Origin: Biscogniauxia marginata
Lineage: Eukaryota; Ascomycota; Sordariomycetes; Xylariales; Xylariaceae
Assembly: GCA_022695795.1 (NCBI GenBank)
Contig: MU404144.1
Location: forward strand, 1 to 64,000
Direction: 5' to 3'
Length of the DNA stretch: 64,000 nucleotides
Below the pieces are notes generated by a model. The model was not told the origin of the DNA. It was given only the letters and a program-made list of their open reading frames with translations, and did no database searches. Numbering within the stretch: position 1 is the stretch's first letter; every line of letters starts with the position of its first letter. Positions 1-60,525 of the stretch are shown piece by piece. Position numbers and translations under genes: made by a program.

Positions 1-490
1 ATTATATATTTATAATATAAAGAGTAGTTTAATATAACTTATTATTATAATATAAATAAAAAAGAAATTATATTAAATAAAATATTAATTAATTATAAAT
101 AAAATTTTAAAAATATTTTAATATTTAGTTTTTTCTTAGTTATTAACTAACTAAGCTTAGTTAATTTTAGTTAGGGCCTTGATTAACTAACTTAGTATTA
201 GTCAAGGCTTTAATTAACTAAAACTAAAAAAAAATACTAATTAGTTATTAATTAGTTACTAAATCACAACCCTAGTCTTAGTTAATTATTAACTTAACTT
301 AAACTAACTTATATAAGTCAAGTTAATAACTTGAAAAAAACTAGTAACTTGCCAAGATTTTTAAAAAATATTTTTAATTTTTAAATATTATTTATAATAT
401 AATTAATTAACTTATAATTAACTTATAATTTTATTTTTAATTAATAAATCTATATTACGTTATAAATTTAAAAAGTAACATCAAATTTTA
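1..490. repeat. AT-rich, RIP-like DNA at the window edge
   Basis: No intact coding sequence is visible. Positions 120-360 are built from short TTAGTTAA/TTAACTAA-like words. The stretch 334-356, reading actagtaacttgccaag at its core, is the reverse complement of 5411-5433. The two therefore look like arms of one inverted repeat enclosing 360-5410, which contains the Rep-like element at 491. An ATCACAACCCTA motif near 264-275 resembles CACAACCCTG at about 5542-5551. Such ends are reminiscent of hAT-type terminal repeats, but that assignment is inference. Confidence 0.5.
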
Positions 491-1019
491 CTATGGTGTT
501 ACGAACCATAATCATATAAGGCTAACCTCTTACCACTAGCAAAACTCTAACAAATAAACAACTAAAATACATTTAAACTTTATATACACACCTCTTTAAA
601 ATCAATTAAGTAGCAACCTTTATCCACGTGAACAACGTATATAACCACTAAACGCATTATTAACTAATTATATATCATTACTATGCGGATTCCTTTTACT
701 TAATTATTTAACATTAAAAGCGAGTAATTTAATAAGTAAGGAGATTTAAGCCCTTAATCGCCTGTTAACACTATAAACTCTCTAAAAAACTTTATAGTTT
801 TAAATAACCAAGAAACATTACTTAAACTAAAAGCCTTAAATTAGCCACACGACTATTAACTACTAATTACTCCCGTAACGACTTTACTCACATTGCGACT
901 AAGTAGCAAGTTATTAAACTTCTTCGCAAGTTCCCCCCTTTTAACTCTATTCGCGTCGCAATTAAAGCTTAAGACCTTAAACTTATAATTTTAAAACTTA
1001 TTTATATTAAGCCGTTTTA

Positions 1020-2420
1020 AGCTTAACATAAAATTTATGTTTTTAACGTACTTAAAATACATATTTACACTGGACGACTTAATAAAAGGCTTTAAAAATT
1101 TTTAGTTTTAACATTTCTATGCCGTTCGCGAGCTTTATAAAGACGGGACCTCTTATTATTACGTATTAAAAAATAAGCTAAAAAGCGATAATTTCGTAAC
1201 GTTTATACGTTCGACATTCATAGGTTTTATTTTAATATCGGCTTTATTAAAAATAAAGTCGTAACGTGGAAATACCTTTATAAAAAAGGTTCGAAATACA
1301 TCGTTAGCGACATAGCATAACCATATAAATACTAAAAAGAAATATAAATAGAGTTTTAAGTCTTAAAACGAATTTTTCGCCCGCTTCGAAGAATTTACCT
1401 CGCGAGACTTCATTTTACATTTCTCGTTTATAATGTTATATATTAACTAAAAATGAATTAACTTCGTTTTAAAATATATTACTTTAAAGCTTAATAATAT
1501 ATAAAACTTACTAAAAAAAATCCGGGATTAACTAGAAAATAACCTTTATAAATAACTAAATAAGTACTTTTTTTATTTTTCGGTATTATTTTATTTTTCG
1601 TAATTATTTTGCCCGTCGGCGAGGGGTAATTATATACGAGTTATAAAGATTCGTAAGCTTACTAGGCGTTTTAAGGGGTTTCGAGAGTACCCCACCCTCG
1701 TGCCTCGAGGGGGCCCCCCTTTACACCTCTTAACATAAAATAAACGTTATAAATCTTTTTAACACTTTCGTAAGTAATTACCTCTCCCCTTAAAAGCGTT
1801 TTAGCTCGTAATAAAAAGTTCTTTTTATTTATTAAATGTTCGTTTAAGGGTTTTTAGCTTTATATAAACGTTTATTTTATAATAATTTATATAACTTTCT
1901 CCCTTATTTTAAGTCCCCTTTTTATTTTTGTTTTTCGAGAGGTTTCTTTCCTTATAAAGAGGGAGTTATATATAACATTTAAAAAGATACGTTTTAGCGA
2001 ATCGATAAAAACCTACTCGCGGTTTTATAAAAAATATAATACTAATATTTATTTAAAACGCTTTAAATCATTTTACGTATATAACGACACTTGTTTTTTT
2101 AAAACGATATAAGTAAAATTGTTAAAACTTTATTATTACATAAATAAGGTATAAAACGCCACTTAAATAAATATATTTAAAAAATATATTGTTGTTAATA
2201 ATATACCCCTTAACGACACCGGCATTTATTAATTTTATAAATAAATACTTTTATAAAAAGTTTTATGTTATCTAGCAAAAACCTTATATATACTTATTTA
2301 ATTAAGACTTTTAAGACTATTTAAATATAAATAAGCGGTAGTTAAAAAAGAACTATATATTCGTGAAAATTAAATCTTTATTATTTATTATACGCGACAA
2401 GCTAGTAACCCTTATTAACA
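1020..2420 (+). pseudogene. Decayed CRESS/genomovirus-type Rep, left copy
   Basis: On the plus strand, broken by stops and frame shifts, there is a stretch at 1210-1320 beginning FDIHRFYFNIGFIKN. It is followed by the tetrad YLYK at 1273-1284. That spacing matches the GRS region and the catalytic-tyrosine motif III (YxxK) of geminivirus and genomovirus initiators. Further down, YIVVNN near 2185-2202 matches the Walker B position of the superfamily 3 helicase, and NYIFV at 2351-2365 matches the family's C-terminal signature. The other copy has the same landmarks in the same order, so the match is not a chance reading of AT-rich DNA. Codon 20 after the FDI start is TGG here and TAG in the other copy. 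This copy is non-functional. Confidence 0.6.
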
Positions 2421-4652
2421 TAACGAAGGTCTTTAATTAATTTATTAAAGAAATAAAAACTAATAATAACTTCGAGGTATAAAGAATTAAGGTTTTTATT
2501 ATATAAAATAAATTTAAAATTTAAAACCTTTAAAAATTAATTATTATTTTTATTAAAAAATGCTATAAAAAAGCGGTTATTTTTTTAGTTTTAATTTTAT
2601 TTATAAATATAATATTCTTTTAAATCTAATAAACGAAAATAAATTAATTTTTAATTTTTAAAACGAAAAAAGTAATATTAAAATTATTATTAATTAAATT
2701 ATTAATAATTTTCGAAATTCTAAATAAAAACCGTATTTTAAACTGAAAAGTAAAAATAACTATATATTTACGTTTAAGCCTTTTATTTTTATTATTCGAA
2801 ATCTCTTTATCCGCTTTTCGTTTCGAGGGTTTAGGCTTTTTATTTATATTTATTCTTTTTATTTTAATTATAATATTATTTACCTTTTTATAAATAAACT
2901 TTTTAGTAATAAAAAAATACGTAAATTAATATTATAACGTAAAGATTATACTTTATAATACTCTTTTTCTTAATTTAATAAAATTTATTTATTTCGTTAT
3001 TATAAGCCTTTATAACTTGATTAATTAGTAGTTAAATAAAAAAAAGGAAAAACTATAATTAAAACTTAACGTAAAAATAATAATATCGATTTAAAATAAT
3101 ATTAAGTTATTACTTTTTATTTATAAAACGAAAATAAAAAGGTTAAGTATTATTTTTTAAAAAAAGAAAAAACCCCGCCGTAACTGTAAATAAACTAATC
3201 TTAAACGACGTATTCCCGACTCGATTAAACCTTATACTTAAAAACTTAATATTAATCACCTTTATAACACGCTAATTACTAACCTTAAACATGTTAAAAA
3301 CAAGATAAATCCGCGACGTAATGCTTTATTAAGCCAAAATACGTATATTATAAAACCTCGATATATAATGTTTTATTAAAACATTTAAACCTTGAAAAAA
3401 ACCTCGTTATTACCACGATAAATACTCGTAAAAAATTAATTTTAAATAATAAAAATCTTATGTCGTTATCTTTAATATATATATTATAATTAATAAAAGC
3501 ATTATTAACTTTTTTATTTTTTTTATTTTTTATTTTTTTAACGTTAAATTAATAATTATATATACTAAGCGAAATTTCGCTTAACATTATTAAGTCGGGA
3601 ATGACGCCGTTAGCTTTAACCGAATTTGTAAAGCATTACCGCCTTTAAACCTTAATCGCGTTAATAATAATAAAAATAGTTAAAAATTAAGGTATAAAAC
3701 AAGAACGCCTTAGCTTAACGAGGCGAGTCGAGGTTGCCGGTCGCGATAGCGGGTAAATACGACGCTATTAAAAAAATAATGATAATACATCTAAATAAAC
3801 TATTAAAAATATAAACTTTTTATTAAAAAGTTATTACTTAAAAACCGTAAATTAAAATTAAAATTAATTTAACTCACGTTAATAAAATAATACGAATAGT
3901 TTCTTAAAAAGGTAATAAAGGGGCGATCTTAATATGACATATTACTCTTATCCTTAACGAGATATATAGTTTTAAACTTAATAACGCCGGTAATATTAAC
4001 GTTAATAACCCGTATATTAAATTAAGCCGTATGACGCTCGAGGCCGTGAATAATAACGATACTTAAAACGCTTATATTTTAATCGAAAGCCTTTATATAT
4101 ACCTAATTAAGCCGAATAAAAATAATAATATAAATAAAACACGAAAAGTTAATAATAATTCGATATATACGAAAAAGAACTTAATAACACTAATAATAAT
4201 TATCGAAATTCGTAATTTTAAGGAAAAAAAAGAAACGGTGACGACGTAAATAACATAAATATAGAAAGAACTAACGTAAAACTTATAAATAAACAAAATG
4301 CAAATATAAAATGAGATATATTACTTATTAATATAAATAAAAATAAGAATAGTAATAACAAAATTATATATAAGAAAAAAGGTAATTAATAAATATATAT
4401 ATACGTAAAAGCGGTAAGTTTTAAAACTAATTATATCCGAAAATATAATAAGTATTAATATAAACGAAAATTAATTATAAATTATACGATTAAATAAGTA
4501 GAATTAAATAAACGAAAAAACTTTATAAAGATTTATTATATAAACATTATATATAAAGTATAACTAATAAGAAAGTAAGGCCGGACTAACAAAAACTAGA
4601 ATAACTTATTAAGTTTAAAAGTAAGTAATCCTTATAAGAAAACTAAATAACC

Positions 4653-4898
4653 TTAATAAAATACGAATAAAACACAAACCGCGTAAATAACGTTCGTGCC
4701 GTAAATAGGGCTGGAATCCGTCCCCGCGTAATTAATAACTACACCTCCCGAATAGTCTTCATAGCCCGAAAGTGGCCTTAACCGCCACGCACAAACGTGC
4801 ACTCCAAAAAAGGTGGGGGGGGACCCCAAAACTAGTAAGGGGGACCTTAATCCAAAATAGTTAATTAAATATGCCGCTTGTATTTTAGTGTAGGACAC
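4653..4898 (-). pseudogene. Conserved minus-strand frame at right end of Rep element, left copy
   Basis: An 81-codon open frame reads leftward from the element's right end. It shares SPPTFF, VHV, AWRL, a later INYA..TD, and PIYGTN with the frame at 60216-60473 in the other copy. Retention of the same residues in two independently mutated copies suggests the frame once encoded protein, perhaps one exon of a longer minus-strand gene. I do not recognise the family. It is divergent to the Rep frame if the element is viewed as a circle. A non-coding explanation (both copies simply descend from the same DNA) cannot be excluded. Confidence 0.4.
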
Positions 4899-4928
4899 TA
4901 AACACTAACATCATAACAGTAATATTAA

Positions 4929-5550: not shown

Positions 5551-7500
5551 GAATATAAATAATATTATTCGAGAATAAATTATTATAAATTAATAATACT
5601 TTATAATATTTCTTATATAATATTATAAAAATAAAATAACAATATATTTATATAATTAATTATAAAACTAAATACTCGAAAATTTACGTTTTACGAAAAA
5701 ATAATTAATTATTTCTTTTTCATTTAAGTTATGTTATTATGATAATATTTTTTATTACGCGAATATAACGCGAGGCAAGTCGAAAAAACCTAAATTTTTA
5801 ATTTCGTATGACGATAAAAATTATTATAAACGCATTTAAATAAATAAATCGATTATTAAAAAGCTTTATACGAAAATTTAAATATATATTGAAAATAATT
5901 TAAATTAATACGTAAAATAATTATAAAACATAAAATTTTTAAAAAATATATTTAATTTTAACGAGATAAAGTTTATACTTAAAATAATTATTTAAATTAA
6001 TATAATAATAATAAATATAAAACGATATAAACGACTTTAATAAGTTTAATAAAAAATCGAAAATAAGTTATAATTATTTAAGTTATTAATATTAATAGTT
6101 TTATTATATTAAATAATAAATAAATAATAAATAAACTTAATATAAAATTTATAAAGTATTTCGACTTTTATATTAAAAATCGAATATAAAGCTTTAAACG
6201 TTTATTATATTTTATATATTTAATTATTCGTTATATAAATTATAACTTCTCGATTTTATATATTTTAATATTTTTTAAAAATATATATATATAATAATTA
6301 CTTAAAAGATTTAATAAAACGTTATTATTATTACGATAATTACTTCGAATATATAAATTAATTTTTATATAAAAAGCGCGTATATCTTTTCTCGATTTTA
6401 ATATAAATTAAGTATTTTAAAAAGTTAAAATATTTATAATAACTCGCGAGGTATTATTATAATTTAATTTTATTATAAATAAAATTAAAAAGCACTAAAA
6501 AGTTTTTTTATAAACATTATAAACATTTATAATTAATTTATAAAAATTAATTTATTATTAATATATAAAATGGTTTTATTACGAGATAAAATTACTTGTT
6601 TTTAATAAATAATATAAAATTAAAAATAAGTAATTATAAATAAAAGAAATATTTAATATAAAAAAAGGAATAATTTTATAAATTAAAAAAATAATATTAC
6701 GATTAATAATAATAAAAAAGTCTTGAAAAAAGTAATAATTAAACAAAAACGATATAATATATATATTTATATAACGAATAAAGATATATTTAATAATATA
6801 ACAAATAAAAAAGTATTTAATAATTTAAATTTCGAGGAATTATAATTAATTTTATTTATAATTAATTTTTTATTTTAATTTTAAAGGGTTTTAACTCGAA
6901 AAATATAATAAATAAATTAATTTAAATTACTTAACGTGTCTTATAAGCGAGTGGGTTACTCGATTTCTTATATAAAATCGACTTTTTTAAAAATTCATAG
7001 CTTTGCACGTAAAAATCGTAAAAATATCGGACCTTTTTTATTAGTTATATAATAATGAGGTTTTATTAAAAGTAAAATCGGAAAAATGGATTTCAAGAAA
7101 CGCGAAAAACTAAAATTAAAACAAAACGCACGGACCTTTTTACGTATTTTTTTTAACTTTTAGTTAAACCTTATAATTATATAACTAAAAAAAAAAGGTC
7201 CGAGATTTTTACGATTTTTACGCGTAAAGTTATGAATTTTTAAAAAAGTCGATTTTATATAAAAAATCGAGTAGCTCACTTGCTTATAAGACACGTTATT
7301 AAAAAAACTAAATACTTAATATAAAAAAGGTATTTAGTTTTTAAAGCGTAAAACTAAAAAAGACAATTCGAATAATAATAATTATTAATTAATTTTAATA
7401 ATTAAAACTATAAAAGTTATAAAAATTAATTTACTCGTTTATATAATTTATATTTATTTAAAAGTTATTAAAGGATTTTTTATTATATATAAAAACTTAA
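5551..7500. mobile_element. RIP-mutated transposon copy A
   Basis: This stretch is the reverse complement of about 35311-36800 and parallels about 49490-50940. A diagnostic shared block is a hairpin-like run around 7308-7400 (ggtatttagtttttaaagcg and flanks), found again at 36968, 50868 and, inverted, at 35430-35490. All interior frames are destroyed and most remaining cytosines are in CpG. The transposon class cannot be decided from what survives. Copy A lacks the part corresponding to 36800-37210, consistent with interruption by the neighbouring element. Confidence 0.6.
6934..7296. mobile_element. MITE-like element with about 120-bp inverted arms
   Basis: The left arm starting acgtgtcttataagcgag (6934) pairs over about 120 nt with the right arm ending cttataagacacgt (7296). 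The element is 363 bp. It sits inside transposon copy A, and two uninterrupted versions of the host site are present at about 36951-36970 and 50848-50868, which defines the insertion. TTA/TA flanks the ends, so the target duplication is probably 2-3 bp. A decayed relative lies at about 48733-49155 and an end fragment at 35311. Confidence 0.7.
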
Positions 7501-35100: not shown

Positions 35101-35310
35101 TACAGAATTCGAAGGAATTAATTATATATTTTAATAGGGGTTTAGATATTATTTACGTGATAATCTCTTTATATAACTTTATATACTTAATTATAATAAC
35201 GTTACTTTTAATTTATTTAAATATAATACTTTATAAATATATTATAAAAATAAGCTTATAAATGAAATTTTATAATTATTATACTTTTAATTATTAAAAA
35301 TTATTTATAT

Positions 35311-37210
35311 TAACGTGTCTTATAAGTGAGTAGGTTATATAAACGAGTAAACTAGTTTTTATAACTTTCATAGTTTTAACTATTAAAAAACATTTACGTG
35401 GTATTAAAATTAATTAATAATTATTATTATTCGAATTATCTTTTTTAGTTTTACGCTTTAAAAACTAAATACCTTTTTTATATTAAATATTCGATTTTTA
35501 TACGTAATTTAAATCGATTAATTTATTATAATTTTTAAGTTAAAACCCTTTAAAATTAAAATAAAGAATTAATAATAAATAAAATTAATTATAACTTCTC
35601 GAAATTTAAATTATTAAATATCTTTTTATTTATTATATAAGTATTATTAGTTATATTTTTATTTGTTATATAAATACGTGTATTATAATTAGTTTAACTA
35701 TATATATTATATTGTTTTTATTTAATTATTACTTTTTTTAAAACCCTTTTTTCTTATTATTAATTATAATATTATTTTTTAACTTATAAAATTATTCCTT
35801 TTTTTATTTATAATTATTTATTTTTAGTTTTATATCATTTATTTAAAATATAATTTATCTTTCAAAAATAAATAATTTTATTTCGTAATAAAGTTATTTT
35901 ATAAATTAATTATAAATATTTATAATAAAATTAAATTATAATAATATCTCGCAAATTATTATAAATGTTTTAACTTTTTAAAATACTTAATTTATATCGA
36001 GGTTAAAAAACGTATATATATATTTTTTATAATATAATAATAATAACGTTTTATTAAGTTTTTTAAATAATTATTATATTTTTTAAAAACATTAAAACAT
36101 ATAAAGTTAAGAAGTTATAATTTATATAACGAATAATTAAATATATAAAATATAATAATATTAAATTTTTTATAATATTTTTCGTAATTATTTAAAATTA
36201 ATAAGCGTTTAAAACCTCGTATTTAATTTTTAATATAAAAGTCGAAATATTTTATAAATTTTATGTTAAATTTAATTATTATTTAATTATTATTTAACAT
36301 TTTAATTTTACTTTTTAATAATAATAAATTATCGTGATATTATAAAATTAAATATAAATCTTATTTCATTAAAATTATATATATATTTTTTAAAATTTCA
36401 TATTTCGTAACTATTTTATATATTAATTTAAATTATTTTTAATATATATTTAAGTTTTCGTATAAAGCTTTTTAATTAATTATTTATTTATTTAAACGTA
36501 TTTATAATAATTTTTGTCGCTACACGAAATTAAAAGTTTAATTTTTTTAATACGTCTCGCGTCGTGTTCGCGTAATAAAAGGTTTATTATTACGATAATA
36601 TAATTTAAACGAGAAAAAAATAATTAATTATTTAAATTAATAATATATCGAACGATTATTATTTCTTCATAAGACGTAAGTTTTTGAATATTTAGTTTTA
36701 TAATTAATTATATAAATATATTGTTATTTTACTTTTATAATGTTATACAAGGAATATTATAAAGTATTATTAACTTATAATAATATTATTTATATTTAAT
36801 TATATAAGTTATTCGAGTTTTTATTAATATTATTAAGTTTTAAAATAAATAAATTAATATATTTAAATTTTTTTATTTAAAAATATATAAATATAATTTT
36901 ACGTGTTTTAATAATAATAATAAATATATTATTTATTAATTAATTAATTTAAATTACGCGTTAAGTAACTAAATACTTAATATAAAAAAGGTATTTAGTT
37001 TTTAAAGCGTAAAACTAAAAAAGATAATTCGAATAATAATAATTATTAATTAATTTAAATTACATATTAAAAAACTAAATGTTTAATTTAAATAAAACGA
37101 TTTAAATAATAATAATTATTAATTAATTTCAATATTATATAAATAATTTTTAATAATTAAAATTGTAATAATTACAAAAATTAACTTACTTATTTAAGTA
37201 ATACGTTATA
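35311..37210. mobile_element. RIP-mutated transposon copy B with inverted ends
   Basis: The left end starts TAACGTGTCTTATAAGTGAG at about 35311. The right end runs to about 37210, where a decayed inverted copy (acttatttaagtaatacgtta) is read. Inner blocks at 35430-35490 and 36968-37050 are inverted relative to each other. The interior 35500-36800 matches copy A (5551-7500) in reverse orientation. No frame survives. The 14-bp end ACGTGTCTTATAAG is shared with the MITE at 6934, so the MITE may be a deletion derivative or a dependent of this family. Confidence 0.6.
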
Positions 37211-37899
37211 CATTTTAATAATAATAAATATATTAATATTTAATTAAATAACGAAATTTATATATGAAAAAATTAATTACTTTATATAAAATAAACATTG
37301 AGTTTTTAAAATATAAAACAAAACAAAATAATTTTAATAATATTTATTATTAATTAATTTCGATGTGATATAAATAATTTTTAATAATTTTTAATATAAT
37401 AATTATGAAATTTCACTTATAAACTTATTTCGTTTATTTATTTATATAACATATTATTAATAAATATTACGGTTTATTTAATATATTTAAATTAAATTTA
37501 CAAAGAATTTTAAATAATTATTATAACTTTATAACTTTTCTTATTATAATAATAAAATATAAAAATAAAAATTTATTTATAATAATTATTATTATTATTA
37601 AAAAGCATATAATTTAATTGTTAAATTTTAATTTTAATTTTAAAAAGCGTTAATATTTAAACGAGTTAATAATAGGAAGAAAGGTGTTATTAATTTAAAT
37701 GTATGAATTATAGCCCGGATAACGGAGGGGATAAATATAGTCCAGATATTAACATTTATAATTGACTCTAGATGTCATAGAATCTACACTGCTGAAAGGG
37801 TTCCACTTATCTAAAGACTAGAATTTGATTTGAACATGAATTCCAGTAATTATAGGGGTCTCTTATATTCATTTTTGAAGCATCCAAAATTTTAGTCAA
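37211..37899. other. End of AT island and 3' flank of the flavoprotein gene
   Basis: AT-rich until about 37690, then normal DNA. No coding frame. Confidence 0.5.
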
Positions 37900-40239: not shown

Positions 40240-43036
40240 ATGCAGCGACCTAGGCGAAAAAGCCAAGAAAATTCGGCTGCGAGACGGCACTTCATTTGCG
40301 ATATCGATGCGTGTGGAAGATCATTCACTAGGTCTGAGCACCTCCATCGCCACCAAAAAAATCACACAAACGGCGATGCGACATGTACGCGTTGCCGGGC
40401 GCATTTCAAGCGCCAAGATCTTCTTGGTGAGCTCTCATCTCTTAATAGCATTTCGGCGCTAATAGTATGAGGTAGAACGGCACTTAGAACGACATAAACA
40501 GAGGGATAAAGAAGCTGGAGGCGAGGGCTTCGGAATCCTGAATACCCGGAAACGCATGTGGAAGGATCATGATGGTAGAATCGTCCAAAAGAAGCCTGCT
40601 AACCATGGATCTAATAATGATCCACTGGAAGCGCCGTTTCTACCTCAGATTGAACAGCCGATATCTCCTCCGGTATCATCTCAAAATTCAGACCTCACAA
40701 ATATCAACGGCGTCCAGACGCCATTCGTTGAGGAAAATGTGCTCCCAGATTGCTTGTTTTCAAACTGTCAACGCGAACATCAGCGACCATCATATTGGTT
40801 GCCATCTTCAGATTGCCCAAATATTGGTATAAACTCCGTTCATATCGATAATAACTACGACGAGGTCCTTCAGCCTGACACCGCGAGTTCATTTAACATG
40901 CCTTATACAACGCAAGTCAACTATGACTGGCTATTCAGTCCAGGTGATAACTTTGAAAACCTCGGTGGCATGGCACCTTCGATATCACAAGTGCCTTGTA
41001 TCCTAGAACCAGCCTTGAACTCATATTCTTACGGAATCGACCAAACTACGTCCGTAAATTTAGTTCCTAGTATACTACCAGTCGTCTCGATGGATACAGG
41101 GCAGCATAGTGATACTACAACAGCAACCTCCGCCACGACCTTATATTACATGAACCTGGGCGCATCTAGCAGGCTTGACTCAAGCACCTCGGAAAGAGGA
41201 GGTTGTTGCCCTAGCCAGAGGGTATCATTGTCAAGGCAACAATCTATCGAGAGTTCTGAATTAGTCTCCGAGGTAGATTTCGAACGCCCCCTAGCCACAC
41301 TTCGGCCTCCCGAAAGTCTGCCTTCTATCGATAGTTTCACATATACTCAGATACAAGCGAAGATTCAAGCCGCGAAGCCGTTAGCTCCGGATGGTTCTAA
41401 CTTGAACGTACATCAACCTCTGCTGTCCATTGCTTCATTACAGGCATATTGCGACTTATTCTTCACAAAGTTCAACACTGCATACCCTTTGATACATCAG
41501 GCGACTTTCGAGCCACATCGAAGCGAGCCTTTGCTCTTACTATCCATTATTCTACTAGGAGCTACATACTCCCAAAAGGATGCGCATCAACTGGCTGTAT
41601 GCATTCATGATGTGATCAGACCACAGATATTTGCACATGCAGATTTTAGCCCCAAACCAAGTCTTTGGATGCTACAAACTATCCTTTTGGTCGAATGTTT
41701 CGGCAAGTCTCGAGCTGGCCAGAAACAGCATGGCATGAGCCACCTCTTCCATGGCATGCTAATTAATCTCATTCGACGGAGTGATTGCCAATCTGCAAAG
41801 CCCATACGACCTAGTGAAACCGACCAGAACAGTACGAATGATGAAATGCATTGGAGAAAATGGTCAGAAACTGAAGAAAAGAAAAGGTACCAACTCTAGG
41901 GCTTGGTGCACTAACATTGAAGGAAGGACTGACAGATTCATAGATTAGCATTATTATGCTTTATGTGGGATACCCAACACGCCGTGCTCTTCTGCCAGAG
42001 TCTTTGCATGTCGGCATTTGAATTAATACTTCCTCTTCCCTGCGACCAATCACTGTGGGAAGCCTCTACAGCTACGGAGTGGTCAAGCTTGTCTCGTGTA
42101 ATCGCCCCTGAGCCAATGTATCTCCTCGCATTGAAATCGTTCTTCACACATGATTCTCATCGGGAATATCATACCAATGGACTGTCTAGGATTATTCTCT
42201 TTCACGGCTTGATGTCCATTTTCTGGGATATGCAGCGCAGAGATCAGACCAGCCTCGGTGTAATATCGACTCCCAGCGGACACTGGCAGAATCGCTTACA
42301 GGCTGCTTATAAGGCATGGAAGATATCGTTCGACAGCTTCTGTGACCAGCTATCAGAGATCACGGATAGACAGGTCCAAATTGGTACCGTAGCCAAGGAA
42401 GCAAGAATTGAATTTGACGCTTGGCAATCTGCGTACACCGTTGTTTATCACGCGGCTCATATCTTACTGCATTCAAGCTTCTTAGACATCCAGGTATATG
42501 CGGGGGCTCGACATATATTAGGCCGCGCAGTACAGCGTGGAGATTTTTTGCGCTCAGAAAAAATTGTGAAGCGATGGGCTATGGCGGATGGCTTGCATGA
42601 GTCTGATATTTCTGGCAAGTTCCCAAATCCATCGTTGGCAGCATGGCACGCTGCTATGTTACTTCACACTATACCCCAGACATTAGTTGATCCTGACTCG
42701 GCCCTATTCCATGTGCCTTGGTGTCTATATCTGGCGACGTTGACGACCTGGGCTTTCCACCACGCCGGACGTAAGGGGCCTGGGCTTAGTAATGATGAAG
42801 ACAGTGAATTAGTGTGGGATGCTCAGGCTGAAATGAGCGCTTTAGTAAGCTCCATGGTGGAAACAGGAACTCGAGGTTTACCATCAATCCAAGGATCCAG
42901 GCAGGCCAGTGGGTTAGTATGGGTTATGGCGGGCGCCCTAAGTAAAGTCCGTTGGGGTATTGTGCACGAAGGTGTTACGGTTCTCAAGAGGTTGATTCCC
43001 TGGAGATTAATTGGCCAATTCGAACGCCCGGATTGA
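40240..43036 (+). CDS. C2H2 zinc-finger / Fungal_trans transcription factor
   Basis: A nuclear regulator. The three exons 40240-40426, 40476-41886 and 41944-43036 give 896 residues. Finger 1 has C20, C25, H38, H42 (FICDIDACGRSFTRSEHLHRH). Finger 2 has C49, C52, H65, H69 (ATCTRCRAHFKRQDLL then ERHLERH) and is completed only by splicing intron 1. The middle is Ser/Gln/Asp-rich. The C-terminal half has the Fungal_trans character (YCDLFFTKFNTAYPLIHQATF, LLLLSIILLGATYS, LQTILLVECFGKSRAGQKQH, and after intron 2 LALLCFMWDTQHAVLFCQSL). This architecture is typical of regulators located in catabolic or secondary-metabolite loci. The target genes are unknown; the divergent flavoprotein is the obvious candidate. 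Confidence 0.88.
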
Positions 43037-48230: not shown

Positions 48231-51173
48231 CATAATTAATTCGTTAATAATATACCTCTCGACATGTTTTTCAGTATCTTTACTATTTGATTTGTAATTT
48301 ATAAAGTTATTAAGGTACCGAAGACGATTATTTAACCCCCGTTTTTATTTATAACAAGTTACTTTTAAATCACCGCTTTTTTTAATTACGCTTTATATTT
48401 TTATTATTATATAATTATAATTTAAGTTTTTATAATATTTTTATAATAATTAATTTAATAATATAAAAATGTTTAATAATAAAATTAAAGTTTAAACTTT
48501 ATTTTTATTTAAATCGTTATATTTAGTTTTTTAACATATAAATTATATTAATAAATTTAAAAATAATATATTTATTATTATTATTATTATTAAAACGTAT
48601 AAAATTATATTTATATGTTTTTTTTAATTTTTAATTTATTTTAAAACTTAATAATACTCTTTATAAACAAGTAAATTATATAAATAAATAAGTTAGTTTT
48701 TATAATTTTAACTATTAAAATTAATTAATATTAACATATTATATAAGCAAGTAAATAAAACAGGCTCGCGGACGAAATAGTTTTTTATATAAAATCGACT
48801 TTTTAAAAATTGTTTAATTTAATATATAAAAATCGAAAAGATTTTAAACATTTTTTTTATATAATTATATCGTTTAATTAAAAATATATATAAATTAAAA
48901 AAACGCAAAAAAAAACCGAGACATTAAAATAAAACGTATAAACTTTTTATATATTTCTTTATATTTTTTTAAAATTGAATATTATTTATAATGAAAATAT
49001 ATAATTATATAATCAGAAAAAAAGTCCGAGATTTTTACGATTTTTACTTATAAAATTTAAAAAATTTTAAAAAGTCGATTTTATATAAAAACCCATTTTA
49101 TTTACCAGTTTATTTTATTTATTAATTTATAATATATTAATTAACGTGCTTATAAGCCGGTTTAAAATTTTTTAATTAAACTAGTTTATTTATAATTACG
49201 TTTTATCTAGCTTTTCATTTAATTAATTTAGCGGTAAAACATGTTATATAAATAAATTATATAAATAAGTAAATTAGTTTTTATAACTTTTATAATTAAT
49301 ATAAATATATAAAAATGAGAGAAAAGGTGATATATTAATAATAAAAAGCTTAGCTTTTAAAGCTTTATTAAAGCTCTCTTTTATAAACTTAATCCTTATA
49401 TAACGTTATACCTCTTATCGTCTCGTATTAATAATTTTAATTATTAAAAACATTTACACGGCATTAAAATTAAATAATAATAATAATATATTTATATAAT
49501 TAATTATAAAACGAAATATTTAATATTTAATATTTTATAAAAAATAATAATTAGTTAATATATTATTAATTTAAATAAATAATTATTTCTTTTTTATTTA
49601 AATTATATTATCGCGATAATAAATATTTTATTATGTAAACGCGACTCGAAACGAGTTTAATACGGGGCTACAAAGGTCCGAAAGACTTTATAAGCCTTAA
49701 CTTTAAATAGCTTAGTTAAATAAAGGAGATAAAGGTCTATAAAACAAAGCTTATAAGCCTCCAGCTTGCAAAGCTCCTCCCTTTTCTTCATATAATTTAC
49801 TATTTACTATTTACACACACTTTATATACTTATATATCAAAGTTAAAAAAAACTAAATTATTATAAACGCGTTTAAATAAATAAATAATTAATTAAAAAA
49901 CTTTATATAAAAACTTAAATATATATTAAAATAATTACGAAATTTAAAATTTAAAAGAAAATATATATAATTTTAATAAAAATCGAGAATAAATTATAAT
50001 TATTTAAGTTATTAATATTAATATTTTTATTATATTATTATTAATTATATTAATTAAAAAGTATTTAATTTTATAATATTATAATAACTTATTATTACTA
50101 AAAAGTAAAATCAAATATAAAGCTTTAAACGTTTATTAATTTTAAATAATTACGAAAAATTATTATTTTATAAAATTTAAAAAATATTATAAAAAACTTA
50201 ATATTATTATATTTTATATATTTAATTATTTATTATATAAGTTATAATTTCTCGACTTTATATATTTTAATATTTTTAAAAAAAATATAAATTAAGTTTT
50301 ATATAATTAAATTGGTTTTTTTAATTAAAAAAGTTATTATTATATTGTTTTAATATAAAAAACACGTATATCTTTTCTCGATTTTAATATAAATTAAATA
50401 TTTTAAAAAGTTAAAATATTTATAATAACTTATAAGATATTATTATAATTTTATTTTATTATAAATAAAATTAAAAAACGTTAAAAATTTTATAATTAAT
50501 TTATAAAGATTATTTTATTATAAAATAAAATATATATTTTAATAAGTAATATAAAATTAAAAAGAAATGATTATAAATAAAAAATATTTAATATAAAATT
50601 AAATTAACTTTATAAGTTAAAAAGATAATATTACGATTAATAAAAAAAGACTTTAAAAAAGTAATAATTAAACGAAAATAATATAATATATATAATTAAA
50701 TTAATTATAATATGTATATTTATATAATAAATAAAGGAATATTTAATAATTTAAATTTCGAGAAGTTATAATTAATTTTATTTATTATTAGTTTTTTATT
50801 TTAATTTTAAAGGGTTTTAATTTAAAAAATATAATTAATTAATTAACTTAAATTATACGTTAAAAAACTAAATATTTAATATAAAAAAAGTATTTAGTTT
50901 TTAAAGCGTAAAACTAAAAAAGACGATTTAAATAATAATAATTATTAATTTTTTGTTTTAATTTAAAAAAATTATTTAAATAATATAATAATATAATAAA
51001 TTAATTAACTTAAATTATATATTAAAAAACTAAAAACTTAATATAAAAAAGTATTTAATTTTTAAAATATAAAACTAAAAAAATAATTTAATTAATAATA
51101 ATAATTAATTAATTTTAATGTTATATAAATGTTTTTTAATAATTAAAATTATAAAAGTTATAAAAACTGGCTT
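48231..51173. repeat. AT island with transposon copy C and a decayed MITE
   Basis: 48733-49155 is a decayed relative of the MITE at 6934: it has the shared AAAATCGACTTTTT arms and a GTCCGAGATTTTTACGA block. 49490-50940 parallels copy A. Within it, about 49650-49850 is sequence absent from copies A and B and with less mutated composition (CTCCAGCTTGCAAAGCTCCT), so it looks like a younger insertion. The copy is cut by the N gap. Confidence 0.5.
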
Positions 51174-51269
51174 NNNNNNNNNNNNNNNNNNNNNNNNNNN
51201 NNNNNNNNNNNNNNNNNNNNNNNNNNNNNNNNNNNNNNNNNNNNNNNNNNNNNNNNNNNNNNNNNNNNN
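51174..51269. other. Assembly gap (96 N)
   Basis: An unresolved run of N. It directly abuts a short tandem repeat, the probable cause of the gap. The 96-aa frame reported across it is an artefact. Confidence 0.98.
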
Positions 51270-55200: not shown

Positions 55201-55920
55201 TAATTATTATTTTATTAAGTCGCTTTAAAATCGAGGTTTTTTCTCTTTATATTAACGCTATAAAAACATTTATTAAATATTTTTATTATTTTATTTATTA
55301 GCTTTTTTACTTATTTTATAATTATTATTATAACTAAATAAATATCGATATATATATATTTAAATTAAATAAAAGTAAATATATTTTTTAAATTAATTAT
55401 TAATTTTTTAAATTTATTATTAAGAGAAGGGAAATTAATATTTTATAAAATATAATATAATAATTTAAGTCGATATAAAAAAAGGCTTTTATTTCGCTTT
55501 TTATACTTGTAATATTTATAAAAGCAAAATTAATAATATTATTTTATTAATAAATTAATTAATCTTTAAAAATAAATTTTAAGTTATAAAATTTTACTTA
55601 TTACGTTATTTATTTTTTAAAGTTATTATATTTAATATATTTTAATTATTATAACTAATAAACCGCATTAAAGTCGTTTATAATAATTATTTTTATAAGG
55701 CTTTTTATATATATTATAAAAAGTTATATTATTAATTTATATTATATAAATATCCTTTAATATAAAAAGCTTAAATTATATATTTAAAAAGTTTTTTACT
55801 TTTTTAATATAAATAAAAACCTTTAAATACTTTTTTTAACTTTTAAACGAAAAAAAAAGTTTCGAAATTTAAATAAATTTTAAATAAATATTTATTTAAT
55901 CGTAACATTAAAAGTATTCG
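52231..55920. repeat. AT-rich RIP island
   Basis: A 3.7-kb stretch that is overwhelmingly A/T, with most remaining C in CpG. No reading frame survives. It is probably one or more old retroelements, but the class cannot be told. Confidence 0.6.
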
Positions 55921-56520
55921 CCATGGTGTTGAGAAAAAGTATAAAGAAAAAAACAAATCCCACAGCGAATATTTCACAAATACCAAAGCATCATCAAACA
56001 CTATTAATTACTATATATACCTTTATATATTTCGTTTAGGCAGCAATTACCGTCCTAGTGACTACATCATTTAATAATGTATTTTACTATTTACTAATTA
56101 CACGCTTCCTTAGTACGAATAGGCTTAACTTAACTTTTCGAACTAGAAAACGAAGAGGAAAACCGTCGCGGAGATTTAAGCCCCTTTTCTCGCGACGGTT
56201 TACCGGGTTTACTAATAGACTTCGTAATTCCCGATATTAGTACACCGTTTAGCCTTAATAGCGTATTTAACTAGGTACATAAATAAGAACTCTTTAATAA
56301 ACGTTTTTCGAGCCTAATTTTAGACTTAAAAGGCCCTCGCCACCGTAATAACACCCCCCTTTCTTTATCCCTGTTCGTGCGCAGCCGTTTTACAAAGGGC
56401 GTAGTCGTACTAACAACCCTATTACTACCCCGATATGTATTAATAATAAAAACGACCTCTCGCGAAGCCTCCATCGAAGCCTAGCGGGATTAATCTCTAG
56501 AAATCGACTTTTAAGACCCT

Positions 56521-57995
56521 TTTAAACTGGGTCGATTTAAACTTAACACGAAGTCCGTTTTTTTTATATACCTAAAATACATCTTCCTATTAAAGAAATT
56601 CCTAAAGGAAATTAAAGCCTTTAAATTTTAACACTTTTACGCTTATTATAAATAGCATAAAAATAATATACCTTATTATTACGTACTTGACAAATAGTCT
56701 AAAAAAAAGCAGATTCGTAACGCTCGCCACTTCGACATTAAGCGTTTCCACCTAAACATCGGTTTTATTAAAAATAGGACTACCGCCTAGAAATATTTAT
56801 ATAAAAAGGGGTCTATATATATTAATAGAGACATGACGTAACCACGTAAGTACTAAAAAGAAGTCAAGGTAGATTTCTGGTTAAAGGCCCTCACCTTCTA
56901 AACGAAAGAAGAATTCTTTAAAAGATTCAAAGAATATGCCTCGCGGGATTTAATCCTATACTTTATCGCGATAAGCTTATATACGGACTAGAAATAAAGA
57001 CTTATAATTTAAGAATATATTTTACTAAACCTCGATAGAATTTAAGACCTGCTAAAAGAACTCCGGGAGTAGAAAAAGAAGAATCTCTTTAATAAACCGA
57101 GTAAATACCTTTTCACTTTTCGATATTACACTTTTCGTAATTATCTTACCCGTCGGCGAGGGGTAATTATATACGGGTTATGGGGACTCGTAAGCTTACC
57201 AGGCGTCTTAGGGGGTTTCAGGGGTACCCCACCCTCGTGCCTCGGGGGGCCCCCCCCCTTGTATCCCCCAACATAAAGTAGACGTTATAAGTCTTCTCGG
57301 TACTTCTGTAAATAATTACTCCCCCTCTCGAGGGCGCTTTAGCCCGGAATAAGAAGTTCTTTTTACTTGCTAAGTGTTCGCTTAGGGGTTTCTAGCTTTA
57401 TATAAACGTTTATTTTATAATGATTTATATAACCTTCCTTTCTATTCCAGGTCCCCTCCCTACCCTCATTCCTCGAGGGGGCCCCCCCCCTACAAGGGGG
57501 GGGTTATATACAACATTTAAAAAAATACGTTTTAGCGAATTAATAGAGACCTACTCGCGGTCTCATAAAAAGTATAGCGTTGACATTTATTAGAACGACC
57601 CTGTATATTATATATATATAAAAAAACCCGCCTTTTTAAGACGATATAGGCCCGATCTCTTGGCCCCCATTATTATATAGCAGGGGTATAGAACGCTGTA
57701 TTAATAAACGAGAATGTCGACTATATCGTCGTAAATAATATCCCTTTAAATAGTAAAGGGCTTAACCAGTTTTACAAGCAAATACTAGGATATTAAGTCG
57801 CTTTTTTAGTGATAAACAAATACATGCGCCTCGCAAGTTTTATAAATTAGGCCTTATTATGTATATATATCTTTAATTAGGATCCCAGGGATTACCCTGA
57901 GATAAATGTGAGATGGTTAAAGGGAAACTATATATTCGTGGAGATTAAATCTCCACTTTTTATTAAACGAAAAGGACCCCGCACCTTAAATAGTT
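56521..57995 (+). pseudogene. Decayed CRESS/genomovirus-type Rep, right copy
   Basis: Rolling-circle initiators of this family nick the origin with a tyrosine and carry a superfamily 3 helicase. Read on the plus strand with stops left in, a hydrophobic motif-I-like stretch (SVFFIYLKY) lies at 56554. IPYYYV at 56668-56685 sits where the metal-binding HUH histidines belong. ARHFDIKRFHLNIGF spans about 56722-56766 in the GRS position. YLYKKG at 56794-56811 fits motif III (Tyr-x-x-Lys). After a frame change, DYIVVNNI at 57719-57742 fits Walker B and NYIFVEIKSP at 57926 the C-terminus. A Walker A lysine loop is not clear. In-frame stops (for example TAG at 56788) and lost histidines make it inactive. 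The frame change may be an intron or an indel. Confidence 0.62.
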
Positions 57996-58201
57996 AAATA
58001 AAGGCTCTTAACTAATTCATCGAAGAGGTAGAAGTTAATAATAACTTTGAGGTATAAAGGATTAAAAATAGAAATTTTATTAAATAAATTAAAAATATAA
58101 AACTTTAAAAATTAATTATTATTTTTATTAAAAAAAATGCTATAAAAAGGCGGTTATTCCTTAATACCAGTTTTATCTATAAATATAGCATTTTTTTAAA
58201 C

Positions 58202-58534
58202 TTAATAAATGGAAATAGATAAATCTCGAACCTTTAAAGCAGGAAAAGCAATACCAAGGTCATTACTAGTTAGACCGCTAGTAATCTTTAAAATCCTAGA
58301 TAAAAGTCGCATTCTAGACCGAAAAGTAAAGGTAGCTATGCGCTTACGCTTAAGCCTTTTATCCTCACTATCCGAAATCTCTTTATCCGCCTTCCGCTTC
58401 GAGGGTTCAAACTCCTTATCCATATCTATCCTCTCCATCTTGGCCGTAACACTATTTACCCCACCACGAACAGACTTTTTAATAGTAAAAAAAGGTATGT
58501 GAATTAATACCATAACGTGAAGATTATATTCCAT
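58202..58534 (-). pseudogene. Basic/charged minus-strand frame in Rep element
   Basis: A 110-codon frame on the minus strand contains an acidic-basic stretch (DKEFEPSKRKADKEISDSED then KRLKRKRIATFTFRSRMRLL). That resembles a nuclear-localisation or linker region rather than random AT-rich translation. The equivalent region of the left copy (about 2580-2890) is too mutated to compare beyond patches. An overlapping plus-strand frame (58209-58502) is less protein-like. I do not recognise a family; it could be part of the minus-strand gene that begins near 60473. Confidence 0.35.
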
Positions 58535-60215
58535 AATACTTTTCTTCCTAATTTAATAAAGCTTATTCGTTTCGTTATCACGAGCCTTTATAACTCGATT
58601 AATAAGTAATTAAACAAAAAAAGGAAAAAACTATAATTAAAACTTAACGCGAAAATAATAATACTAATTTAAAATAATATTAGGTCGTTACTTCTTATTT
58701 ATAAAACGAAAATAAAAAAGCTAAGTATTATTTTTCGAAAAAAGAAAAAACCCCGTTATAGCTGTAAATAAATCAATCCTAAACGATATATCCCCGACTC
58801 GACCAAACCCCGCACCTAAAAACCTAGTACTAGCTACCTTCGTAACACGTTAATTATTAACCTTAAACACGCTAAAGATAGGATGAGTTCGCGGCGTAGT
58901 GCTTCACTAAACTAAAACACGCATACTATAAAACCTCGATATATAAAGTTCTATCGAGACATTTAAGCCTCGAAAAAAAACCTCGTTATTACCATGACAA
59001 ATACTCGTAAAAAAATTAGTTTTAAGTAATAAAAATCCCATGTTGTTATTTTTAATATATATATTATAATTAATAAAAGTATTATTAATATTTTTAATTA
59101 TTTTTACTTTGTTATTTTTCCGACGCCGGGTTAATAATCGTATATACCGAGTGAAGTTTCGTTTAGCGTTATTAGGTCGGAAATAACGCCGTCGGCCCCA
59201 ACTAAATCCGTAAGGCATTGCCGCCTCTAAACCTTAGCCGCGTTAATAATAGTGAGGGTGGTCAAAAATTAAAGTATGAAACGAGAACGCCTTGACCTAG
59301 CGAGGCGAGCCGGGGTTACCAGTCGCGGTGGCGGATAAATACGATGTTATTAAGAAAAATAACGACGGCGCATTCAAGTAAACTACCGAGAATATAGACC
59401 CTTTATTAAAGGATCGATAAACCCTAAAAGATCATTACTTAAAAACTACAAATTAAAATCGATATCGGTTTAACTCACATTAATAAAATAATATGAACGG
59501 TTTTTTAAAGGAGTAATTAAGGGGTAATCCCAATATAACACGTTATCCTCACTTTTAATAAAATATATAGTTTTAAACTTAATAACGCCGGTAATATTGG
59601 CGCTAATAACCCGTGTATCGAATTAAGCCGTACGACACTCGAGGCCGTGAATAATGACGATATTTAAAACGCCGATATTTTGGTCGAAAACCTTTATACA
59701 TATTTAGTTAAGCCGGATAAAAGCTATAACATAAGTAGGACACGGGGGGTTTGCGACAGTGCGATAAACGCGAAAAGGAACCTAGTATCGTTAATAATAA
59801 TTATTAAACCCCGCCACTTTAACAAGAAAAGGAGACGGAGATGACATAAGTAACGTGGGAGACGAAGAACGGGACGTTAAAGCAGATGCAAAATGGGGCA
59901 TATTATTTATTTATATAAACAAAAACGAGAATAATAATGGCTAAATCATAAATAAGAAAAAGGGTAATCACTAAATATATATACGCGTAGGACTAATAAG
60001 CTCGGGAACTAATAATATTTGAGAATATAATAAATGTTAATACGAAAACGATTAATTAATAATTACATATTAAAAAGCCGGATATATAGAACTAAATAAA
60101 CGATAAGAATTTGCGCGGACCCACTATATAAATAATATATATAAAGAATAACTAATAAGTAAGCGGGCCGGGTAAAAAAAATAAAAACGAATTACTATAT
60201 TTAAAAGTAAATAAT

Positions 60216-60473
60216 CTATATAAGGAAAGTATAGCGTATTACTATAAAACTAAATAGCCTCGATAAAATATAAACCGCGTAAGCTATATTCGTGCCGTAA
60301 ATAGGATTATAGTCCGTTTCCGCGTAATTAATAGAAATTAATACCGCATTCGCGCAAGCGGCCCGAGACGGCCCTAACCGCCACGCATAAACGTGCACCT
60401 TAAAAAAGGTAGGGGGGGACTCTAAAATAAGCGGGTCGGCCCTTGATTCTAAGCAATTGATTAGTGAAATCAC
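60216..60473 (-). pseudogene. Conserved minus-strand frame at right end of Rep element, right copy
   Basis: An 85-codon frame reading leftward from just inside the right terminal repeat. Shared with 4653-4898 are SPPTFF, VHV, AWRL, INYA, TD and PIYGTN, spanning about 60 residues despite heavy mutation of both copies. The position and direction would make it divergent to Rep around the joined ends, where a capsid gene sits in genomoviruses. Nothing in the sequence shows it is a capsid protein. Confidence 0.4.
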
Positions 60474-60525
60474 TCAGATTTTGGTGTAGAGAAGTTAAAC
60501 ACCAACACCATGGCTGTAATATTAA

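Follow-up and report, generated by a model that had tools for sequence, protein, structure and literature searches.

The stretch analysed here, referred to as the window, comprises the first 64,000 nucleotides of contig MU404144.1 (C90) of Biscogniauxia marginata, whose assembly amounts to 45.3 Mb in 229 contigs. Near its right-hand side lies a repeated element of ~4.61 kb per unit, which runs from nonanucleotide to nonanucleotide and has a G+C content of 30-38% (kilobases 56-60), in a window where AT-rich blocks of ~7-31% G+C per kilobase alternate with genic DNA of ~40-56%. A first-pass annotation had described at this place a repeated 4.6-kb element carrying the remains of a geminivirus- or genomovirus-type replication protein (Rep). 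The repeat was borne out, with a second copy at 1-4927 of the window and at least 31 places in the genome, while its boundaries moved from 55921-60525 to 55902-60524. A 1,001-bp probe gave 37 genomic matches that resolve into these 31 places; at 28 of the places a match exceeds 650 bases. Such probe-based counts are lower bounds. In the 28 regions around probe matches that were compared, counting pieces of at least 150 bases by BLAST, element sequence was present in 27 (the exception being L036), in addition to the two copies in the window. On contig C127, two copies (locus L010) stand head to tail, 4,617 bp apart. The features are collected in Table 1, with loci and contigs under our own numbers (L and C).

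Table 1. Features of the element in the window and of its second copy, with the evidence for each.
Feature	Position	Strand	Evidence
Whole element, young copy	55902..60524	+	Ends common to sister copies; flanks unrelated outside
Left-end nonanucleotide	55902..55910	-	GTAACATTA on +, TAATGTTAC on -; RTAAYATTA in 19/20 left ends
Left arm of origin inverted repeat	55920..55931	+	GCCATGGTGTTG; complementary to 60503-60514, with which it pairs at the L010 dimer junction
Rep nuclease remains (motif I, HUH-like, GRS-like, Tyr-x-x-Lys)	56500..57087	+	Gemini_AL1 in six sister copies; motifs counted over 28 aligned rows
Two G+C-rich stretches between the Rep frames, intron-like	57217..57505	+	Sequence; frame change across them
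Downstream coding-like frame in another phase (DYIVVNNI, NYIFVEIKSP)	57500..58050	+	RY phase p=3.4e-4 in 57402-57701; no helicase profile match
Broken gene of ~343 codons, on the strand opposite to Rep	58205..59233	-	In L010, one frame holds three open pieces (108, 71 and 135 aa); RY signal
Third coding-like stretch (101-aa open piece in L009)	59540..59842	+, strand uncertain	RY phase signal
Three iteron-like GGTGT/ACACC repeats, at and beside the stem	60483..60509	-	Sequence; putative function
Right arm of origin inverted repeat	60503..60514	+	CAACACCATGGC
Right-end nonanucleotide	60516..60524	-	GTAATATTA on +, TAATATTAC on -
Second element copy, diverged and mosaic	1..4927	+	Right-end nonanucleotide at 4919-4927; left end unaligned

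The strongest evidence on the nature of the element comes from its ends, which the first-pass annotation had missed and which carry more weight than the Rep. Twenty left and 24 right ends were tabulated; all right rows were kept, and four of 24 left rows were dropped: L017 lacks this end, L029 aligns only in part, one row was an additional piece of L033, and one was a chance match in the window. RTAAYATTAA is found at every tabulated left end except that of L020 (19 of 20), with G as its first base in 15 and A in 4, and the right ends read AAYATTA preceded by GT or AT in 19 of 24, which is TAATRTT on the other strand. Five deviant right ends (L012, L023, L021, L032 and L020) carry transversions, which repeat-induced point mutation (RIP) cannot make, and outside the conserved end bases the flanking sequence varies freely. 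TAATRTTAC, or GTAAYATTA on the other strand, is the nonanucleotide type of geminivirus origins. Such origins are defined by an inverted repeat whose loop carries a nonanucleotide resembling TAATATTAC. In the element, the arms of the 12-bp inverted repeat GCCATGGTGTTG / CAACACCATGGC are separated from the left and right ends by 18 and 10 bases, respectively, and at the dimer junction (C127:82987-83029) the ends come together as a single stem-loop whose loop holds TAATGTTAC. The exact full stem-loop occurs once in the genome, at this junction of the two C127 copies, and as single-stranded DNA the junction folds with a z of -5.3, none of 200 shuffles being as good. The ends of the element are a geminivirus-type origin, an inverted repeat framing the nonanucleotide at both ends. 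A 19-mer match to the origin inside a 390-aa open reading frame (ORF) of a viral contig (L067) was set aside as chance, the contig otherwise giving only short, weak matches (best 38 bases, E 0.002).

The element is also a RIP-inactivated repeat, as its nearly transition-only divergence and its dinucleotides demonstrate. Between the window copy and L009, 652 of the 654 substitutions in 4,625 columns are transitions, with one gap column, and the element has a TA/AT ratio of 1.33 and a (CA+TG)/(AC+GT) ratio of 0.49, compared with 0.87 and 1.10 in a genic stretch. Since RIP yields transitions only, copies were compared in purine/pyrimidine (RY) letters, which offers a way of reading both coding signal and age in RIP-scrambled repeats. 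In RY letters, no more than 3.3 differences per 1000 separate the window copy, L009, both L010 copies, L011-L015 and L017 from one another; L009 and the pair at L010 are identical. L016 together with L018-L028 show mutual distances of ~5-14.5 per 1000, while L029-L033 lie ~28-35 per 1000 from one another and mostly 30-53 from the others, up to 69 from L026/L027. We read these age classes as at least three waves of copies.

The Rep gene is recognised in the sister copies. The Gemini_AL1 profile (PF00799) exceeds its 24-bit cut-off at six places (24.7-38.5 bits), which are its only matches in the genome at E<=1 and all fall inside copies of the element (C127, C207, C9, C80, C33 and C34); none of 14 control genomes gave a match. 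By coordinates, the C80 match corresponds to window positions 56536-56814, and the other five deviate from this position by no more than a few tens of bases. The Rep frame of the window copy itself is not among the six places, and its four submitted open pieces all lacked a Pfam match, so the Rep claimed in the first-pass annotation has profile support from sister copies and none from the window copy; the order and frame of the motif-I-like stretch, IPYYYV, FDIKRFHLNIG and YLYKKG were as that annotation had given them. In separate searches, open pieces of L010 matched adjacent parts of Gemini_AL1, profile positions 1-28 (15.6 bits) and 40-74 (17.4 bits), each below the cut-off. Against PDB, the motif-I piece had seven matches at E<=10, namely one antibody chain and six Rep proteins (1l2m at E 0.043, 7vg8 at E 0.082 and four at E 1-1.7); five of the Rep alignments cover residues 1-32, and that of 7kik covers 58-85. 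The sole match of the next Rep piece was again a Rep, 7vg8, at E 0.096. Searches with Gemini_AL1_M and Viral_Rep found no matches, weak negatives since no control genome matched either, and a protein database search with a 177-aa Rep-side piece (79 candidates) returned nothing at E 0.01.

Codon structure was sought by scanning RY differences in the frame of the window copy against six diverged copies, and 10 of 29 overlapping scan windows reached p<0.05, with p values uncorrected; region-wise, the signal is often modest and non-significant. In the Rep nuclease stretch, 14 of 29 (p 0.21) and 25 of 50 (p 0.017) differences fall at codon position 3, and in 56802-57101 the variable sites are distributed over the codon phases as 28, 15 and 12 (p=0.008). 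Further downstream, in 57402-57701, the distribution is 1, 15 and 5 (p=3.4e-4), in a phase different from that of the nuclease frame, and this switch implies that an intron or a change of frame lies across the G+C-rich patches. The two patches, 57217-57270 and 57450-57505, are alike and contain runs of C and of G, in an element that is otherwise RIP-changed. The downstream frame is probably the C-terminal part of Rep, following such an intron or frame change. Its DYIVVNNI had been proposed as a Walker B motif, a proposal that gains a codon-like RY signal and no support from a helicase profile.

On the opposite strand, the broken gene favours a third phase, with counts of 9, 8 and 22 in 58602-58901 (p=0.0045) and of 2, 7 and 17 in 58752-59051 (p=6.3e-4), two parts of it giving p=0.06 and 0.09 when tested region-wise. 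By position alone it is a capsid candidate. Its pieces have no convincing Pfam or PDB match; Gemini_coat had no matches in the element, a weak negative as the control genomes were silent too; and a protein database search with the 135-aa piece (13 candidates) yielded nothing at E 0.01. Scans of IMG/VR with this piece and with a 52-aa piece revealed no relative. Matches of the 71-aa piece (L010:2515-2727) to kelch-type propellers in PDB, designed and natural (best E 3e-6), were rejected as probably compositional, no stretch being significant alone. The third coding-like stretch carries RY sites of 4, 12 and 2 in 59502-59801 (p=0.007), in the second phase again, as in 57402-57701. An 85-aa open piece at 60219-60473 was rejected as coding because its RY differences concentrate at codon position 2 (6, 15, 7), and a DUF6019 match of one of 121 open pieces (E 9e-4) was dismissed, the chance expectation over 121 scans being about one in ten. 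In the second copy of the window, RY divergence is low at 57152-57651 (7 of 498 columns) and 58152-59651 (13 of 1,475), and high in the Rep frames (9-18% per 250 bp) and from 59652 to the right end (6-11%). The capsid-candidate region and the G+C-rich patches of this copy thus resemble the young copies, as if modules had been exchanged.

Insertion targets were sought by BLAST with joined flanks, for which low stringency gave AT-rich noise and high stringency was used for the results. The L014 copy is inserted in a high-copy host repeat (e.g. L025:5990-6330; the best 40 of 449 candidates were scored). The first three unoccupied sites of this type read ATAACGTTA, ATAACGTTG and ATAACGTTG, that is, ATAACGTTR in 3/3. 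Twenty further sites were read from the 40 scored places, which include the query itself, and gave ATAACGTTA eight times, ATAACGTTG seven times, ATAATGTTA twice, and ATAATATTG, ATAACATTA and ACAACGTTA once each; ATAACGTTR or a transition variant is present in 19 of them, the twentieth being ACAACGTTA. The L013 copy sits in another host repeat, whose unoccupied sites in a genome search (3/3) are GTAATATTA, GTAACACTA and GTAATACTA. The right flank of L012 is a third host repeat, in which six alignments beginning at the junction, those starting further in being left out, read GTAAAATTA (three), GTAATGTTA, GTAGAATTA and GTAATATTA; because the left flank is a different repeat, L012 provides half a site. 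Scored by the positions out of nine that match GTAAYATTA, the L014 sites mostly reach 6 or 7 (range 6-8) and the L013 sites 8, 8 and 9, while among 24,958 background 9-mers from AT-rich flanks 7.9% reach at least 6, 1.96% at least 7, 0.22% at least 8 and none 9. The element seems to have inserted at genomic sites resembling its own origin.

Rep-driven rolling-circle mobility most simply explains this family. The Gemini_AL1 matches, the origin-type ends, the stem-loop and the transition-only differences support the earlier proposal of a circular Rep-encoding single-stranded (CRESS) DNA replicon or Rep-driven transposon silenced by RIP. A genomovirus in particular is not demonstrated, no capsid having been recognised. 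We think it probable, with some reserve, that this was a rolling-circle element of geminivirus type, since inactivated by RIP, with Rep as its origin-directed integrase. The replicon would measure 4.6 kb and have a single stem-loop origin, a Gemini_AL1-type Rep being encoded on one strand and the other gene opposite to it. Rep would nick this origin at some position within TAATRTTAC, rolling-circle replication would produce a unit-length single strand or a putative circular intermediate, and Rep itself may then join the unit to nonanucleotide-like genomic sites. Integrated copies would thus be opened at the origin, with a nonanucleotide at each end, and because the end of an integrated copy is again a target, head-to-tail copies would follow.

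Several observations weigh against this interpretation. Of 15 joined-flank queries, one (L014) revealed uninterrupted copies among the loci compared, and a search with the right flank of L009 found no match across the junction. The evidence for targeting consists of two full empty sites and one half site, and the L014 variant ATAACGTTG scores 6/9, a level reached by 7.9% of background 9-mers. The filled left end of L014 is GT, while the 20 sampled empty sites have AT in 19 and AC in one, so that a simple nick-and-join retaining the two bases of the target fails for this copy; the whole 9-mer of the element may have been kept there, as by gene conversion or microhomology. A very similar trace would be expected from microhomology-driven integration in which Rep took no part. 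One end is absent from several copies, the right in copies such as L015, L018, L024 and L025 and the left in L017, L019 and L026. Stops lie inside all six Gemini_AL1 places, and RNA_helicase, with 35 matches in the genome, has none in the element, leaving the helicase half, in heavily RIP-changed sequence, without a profile match. Of the HUH histidines, the first is kept in 3 of 27 ungapped rows and the second in none of 26, and no copy has both; most copies read tyrosine, and histidine-to-tyrosine change is an expected product of RIP.

The alternative that survives best, though we hold it unlikely, is repeated infection by a geminivirus- or genomovirus-like mycovirus or plasmid, whose Rep breaks DNA while host repair joins the replicon passively through microhomology. 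A nicked origin and nonanucleotide-like host sites predict the same ends and targets in this case, the GT found in place of the target's AT at the left end of L014 fits homology repair, genes on both strands are in the manner of small single-stranded DNA viruses, and the mosaic copy at 1-4927 resembles a recombinant. However, 31 places and three RY-identical young copies are more than usual for passive capture, and most of the tabulated ends are exact.

It is improbable that a DDE-type transposon with terminal inverted repeats captured a Rep, as would be suggested by the inverted repeats near both ends and by the two transposase ORFs in the Tuber melanosporum precedent (PMC3198968). The inverted repeats of the present element are subterminal with unequal offsets (18 and 10 bases), and its terminal 9-mer is conserved, unlike a random duplication. 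Moreover, none of 121 open pieces of at least 65 aa, drawn from ten regions and hence from part of the copies, matched a transposase family at E 0.05, and DDE_1, the sole transposase family searched genome-wide, gave 21 matches (20 over the cut-off), none in the element proper. Most of these matches carry several stops, so such profiles survive RIP in this genome. One decayed DDE_1 transposase, at C24:426482-426910 (L019 983-1411), is nested in the broken element copy L019.

A Helitron or another HUH transposon would share an HUH-type mobility protein and the want of a clear target duplication. Helitrons end in 5'-TC and 3'-CTRR. Such ends were not seen here, the domain found is Gemini_AL1, the origin-type ends disfavour this origin of the family, and Helitron_like_N had no match in the element, a weak search as no control matched; we regard a Helitron as very improbable. 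Chance resemblance in RIP-scrambled DNA, in favour of which the window copy itself does not score, is refuted by six sister copies over the cut-off at one position, by a codon phase immune to RIP and by an origin at both ends.

Elsewhere in the window, the gene at 40556-41899 encodes a fungal transcription-factor-like protein (best match in Daldinia childiae, 47%), and Rfam and tRNA scans gave no matches. A separate AT-rich repeat family occupies 5579-7454, 35209-37469 and 48736-51174; its middle copy is inverted relative to the other two, the arms reaching 98% complementarity.

Endogenous CRESS sequences are commonly viewed as passive leftovers, but in this family the origin is indicated alike by the ends, by the dimer junction and by the unoccupied targets. 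More tentatively, the element could represent a separate class among eukaryotic transposons, namely CRESS replicons that move without any DDE transposase, employ their own Rep as the integrase at chromosomal sites resembling their origin, and can stack on their own ends; if this is true, the class would directly link geminivirus-like viruses with rolling-circle transposons. A literature search, mostly at abstract level and covering few subscription papers, found no account of origin-defined ends or origin-like targets.

Among known systems, the Geminiviridae and Genomoviridae have genomes of roughly 2.2-3 kb. The element shares with them the Gemini_AL1 domain, a TAATRTTAC stem-loop origin and a Rep accompanied by a gene on the opposite strand, as in the customary layout of these viruses, and differs in its 4.6 kb, its chromosomal multicopy state, the absence of a recognised capsid and a helicase unsupported by profile. 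Replitrons and Helitrons are eukaryotic transposons driven by HUH proteins, with another Rep type and other ends; as generally described, they resemble the element in HUH mobility and differ from it in both of these respects. The closest counterpart was reported in Tuber melanosporum, where Liu et al. (2011, PMC3198968) describe 42 geminivirus-like Reps and a transposon that combines a Rep with two transposase ORFs, has 37-bp terminal repeats, a microsatellite and no obvious target duplication, and occurs in copies more than 95% identical; they suggest that geminivirus-like Reps might drive their own spread in fungi. An "undescribed class", as the first-pass annotation put it, is accordingly too strong, a geminivirus-like transposon having been on record since 2011. 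The words nonanucleotide, stem-loop and tandem are absent from the main text of that article (PMC3198968). Both elements are fungal, reach dozens of copies, and have an interrupted Gemini-type Rep, terminal or subterminal inverted repeats and no ordinary target duplication; the present element differs in that no transposase was found, in a 12-bp subterminal repeat framing the nonanucleotide instead of 37-bp terminal repeats, and in its origin-like targets, dimer and RIP decay. Since ends, junction and targets all point to the origin, actual insertion sites can now be used to test the proposal of Liu et al. (2011) that a virus can be made into a transposon by its Rep. The family is a variant of the geminivirus-like fungal transposon in which the ends and, on the evidence of two and a half sites, also the targets correspond to the origin.

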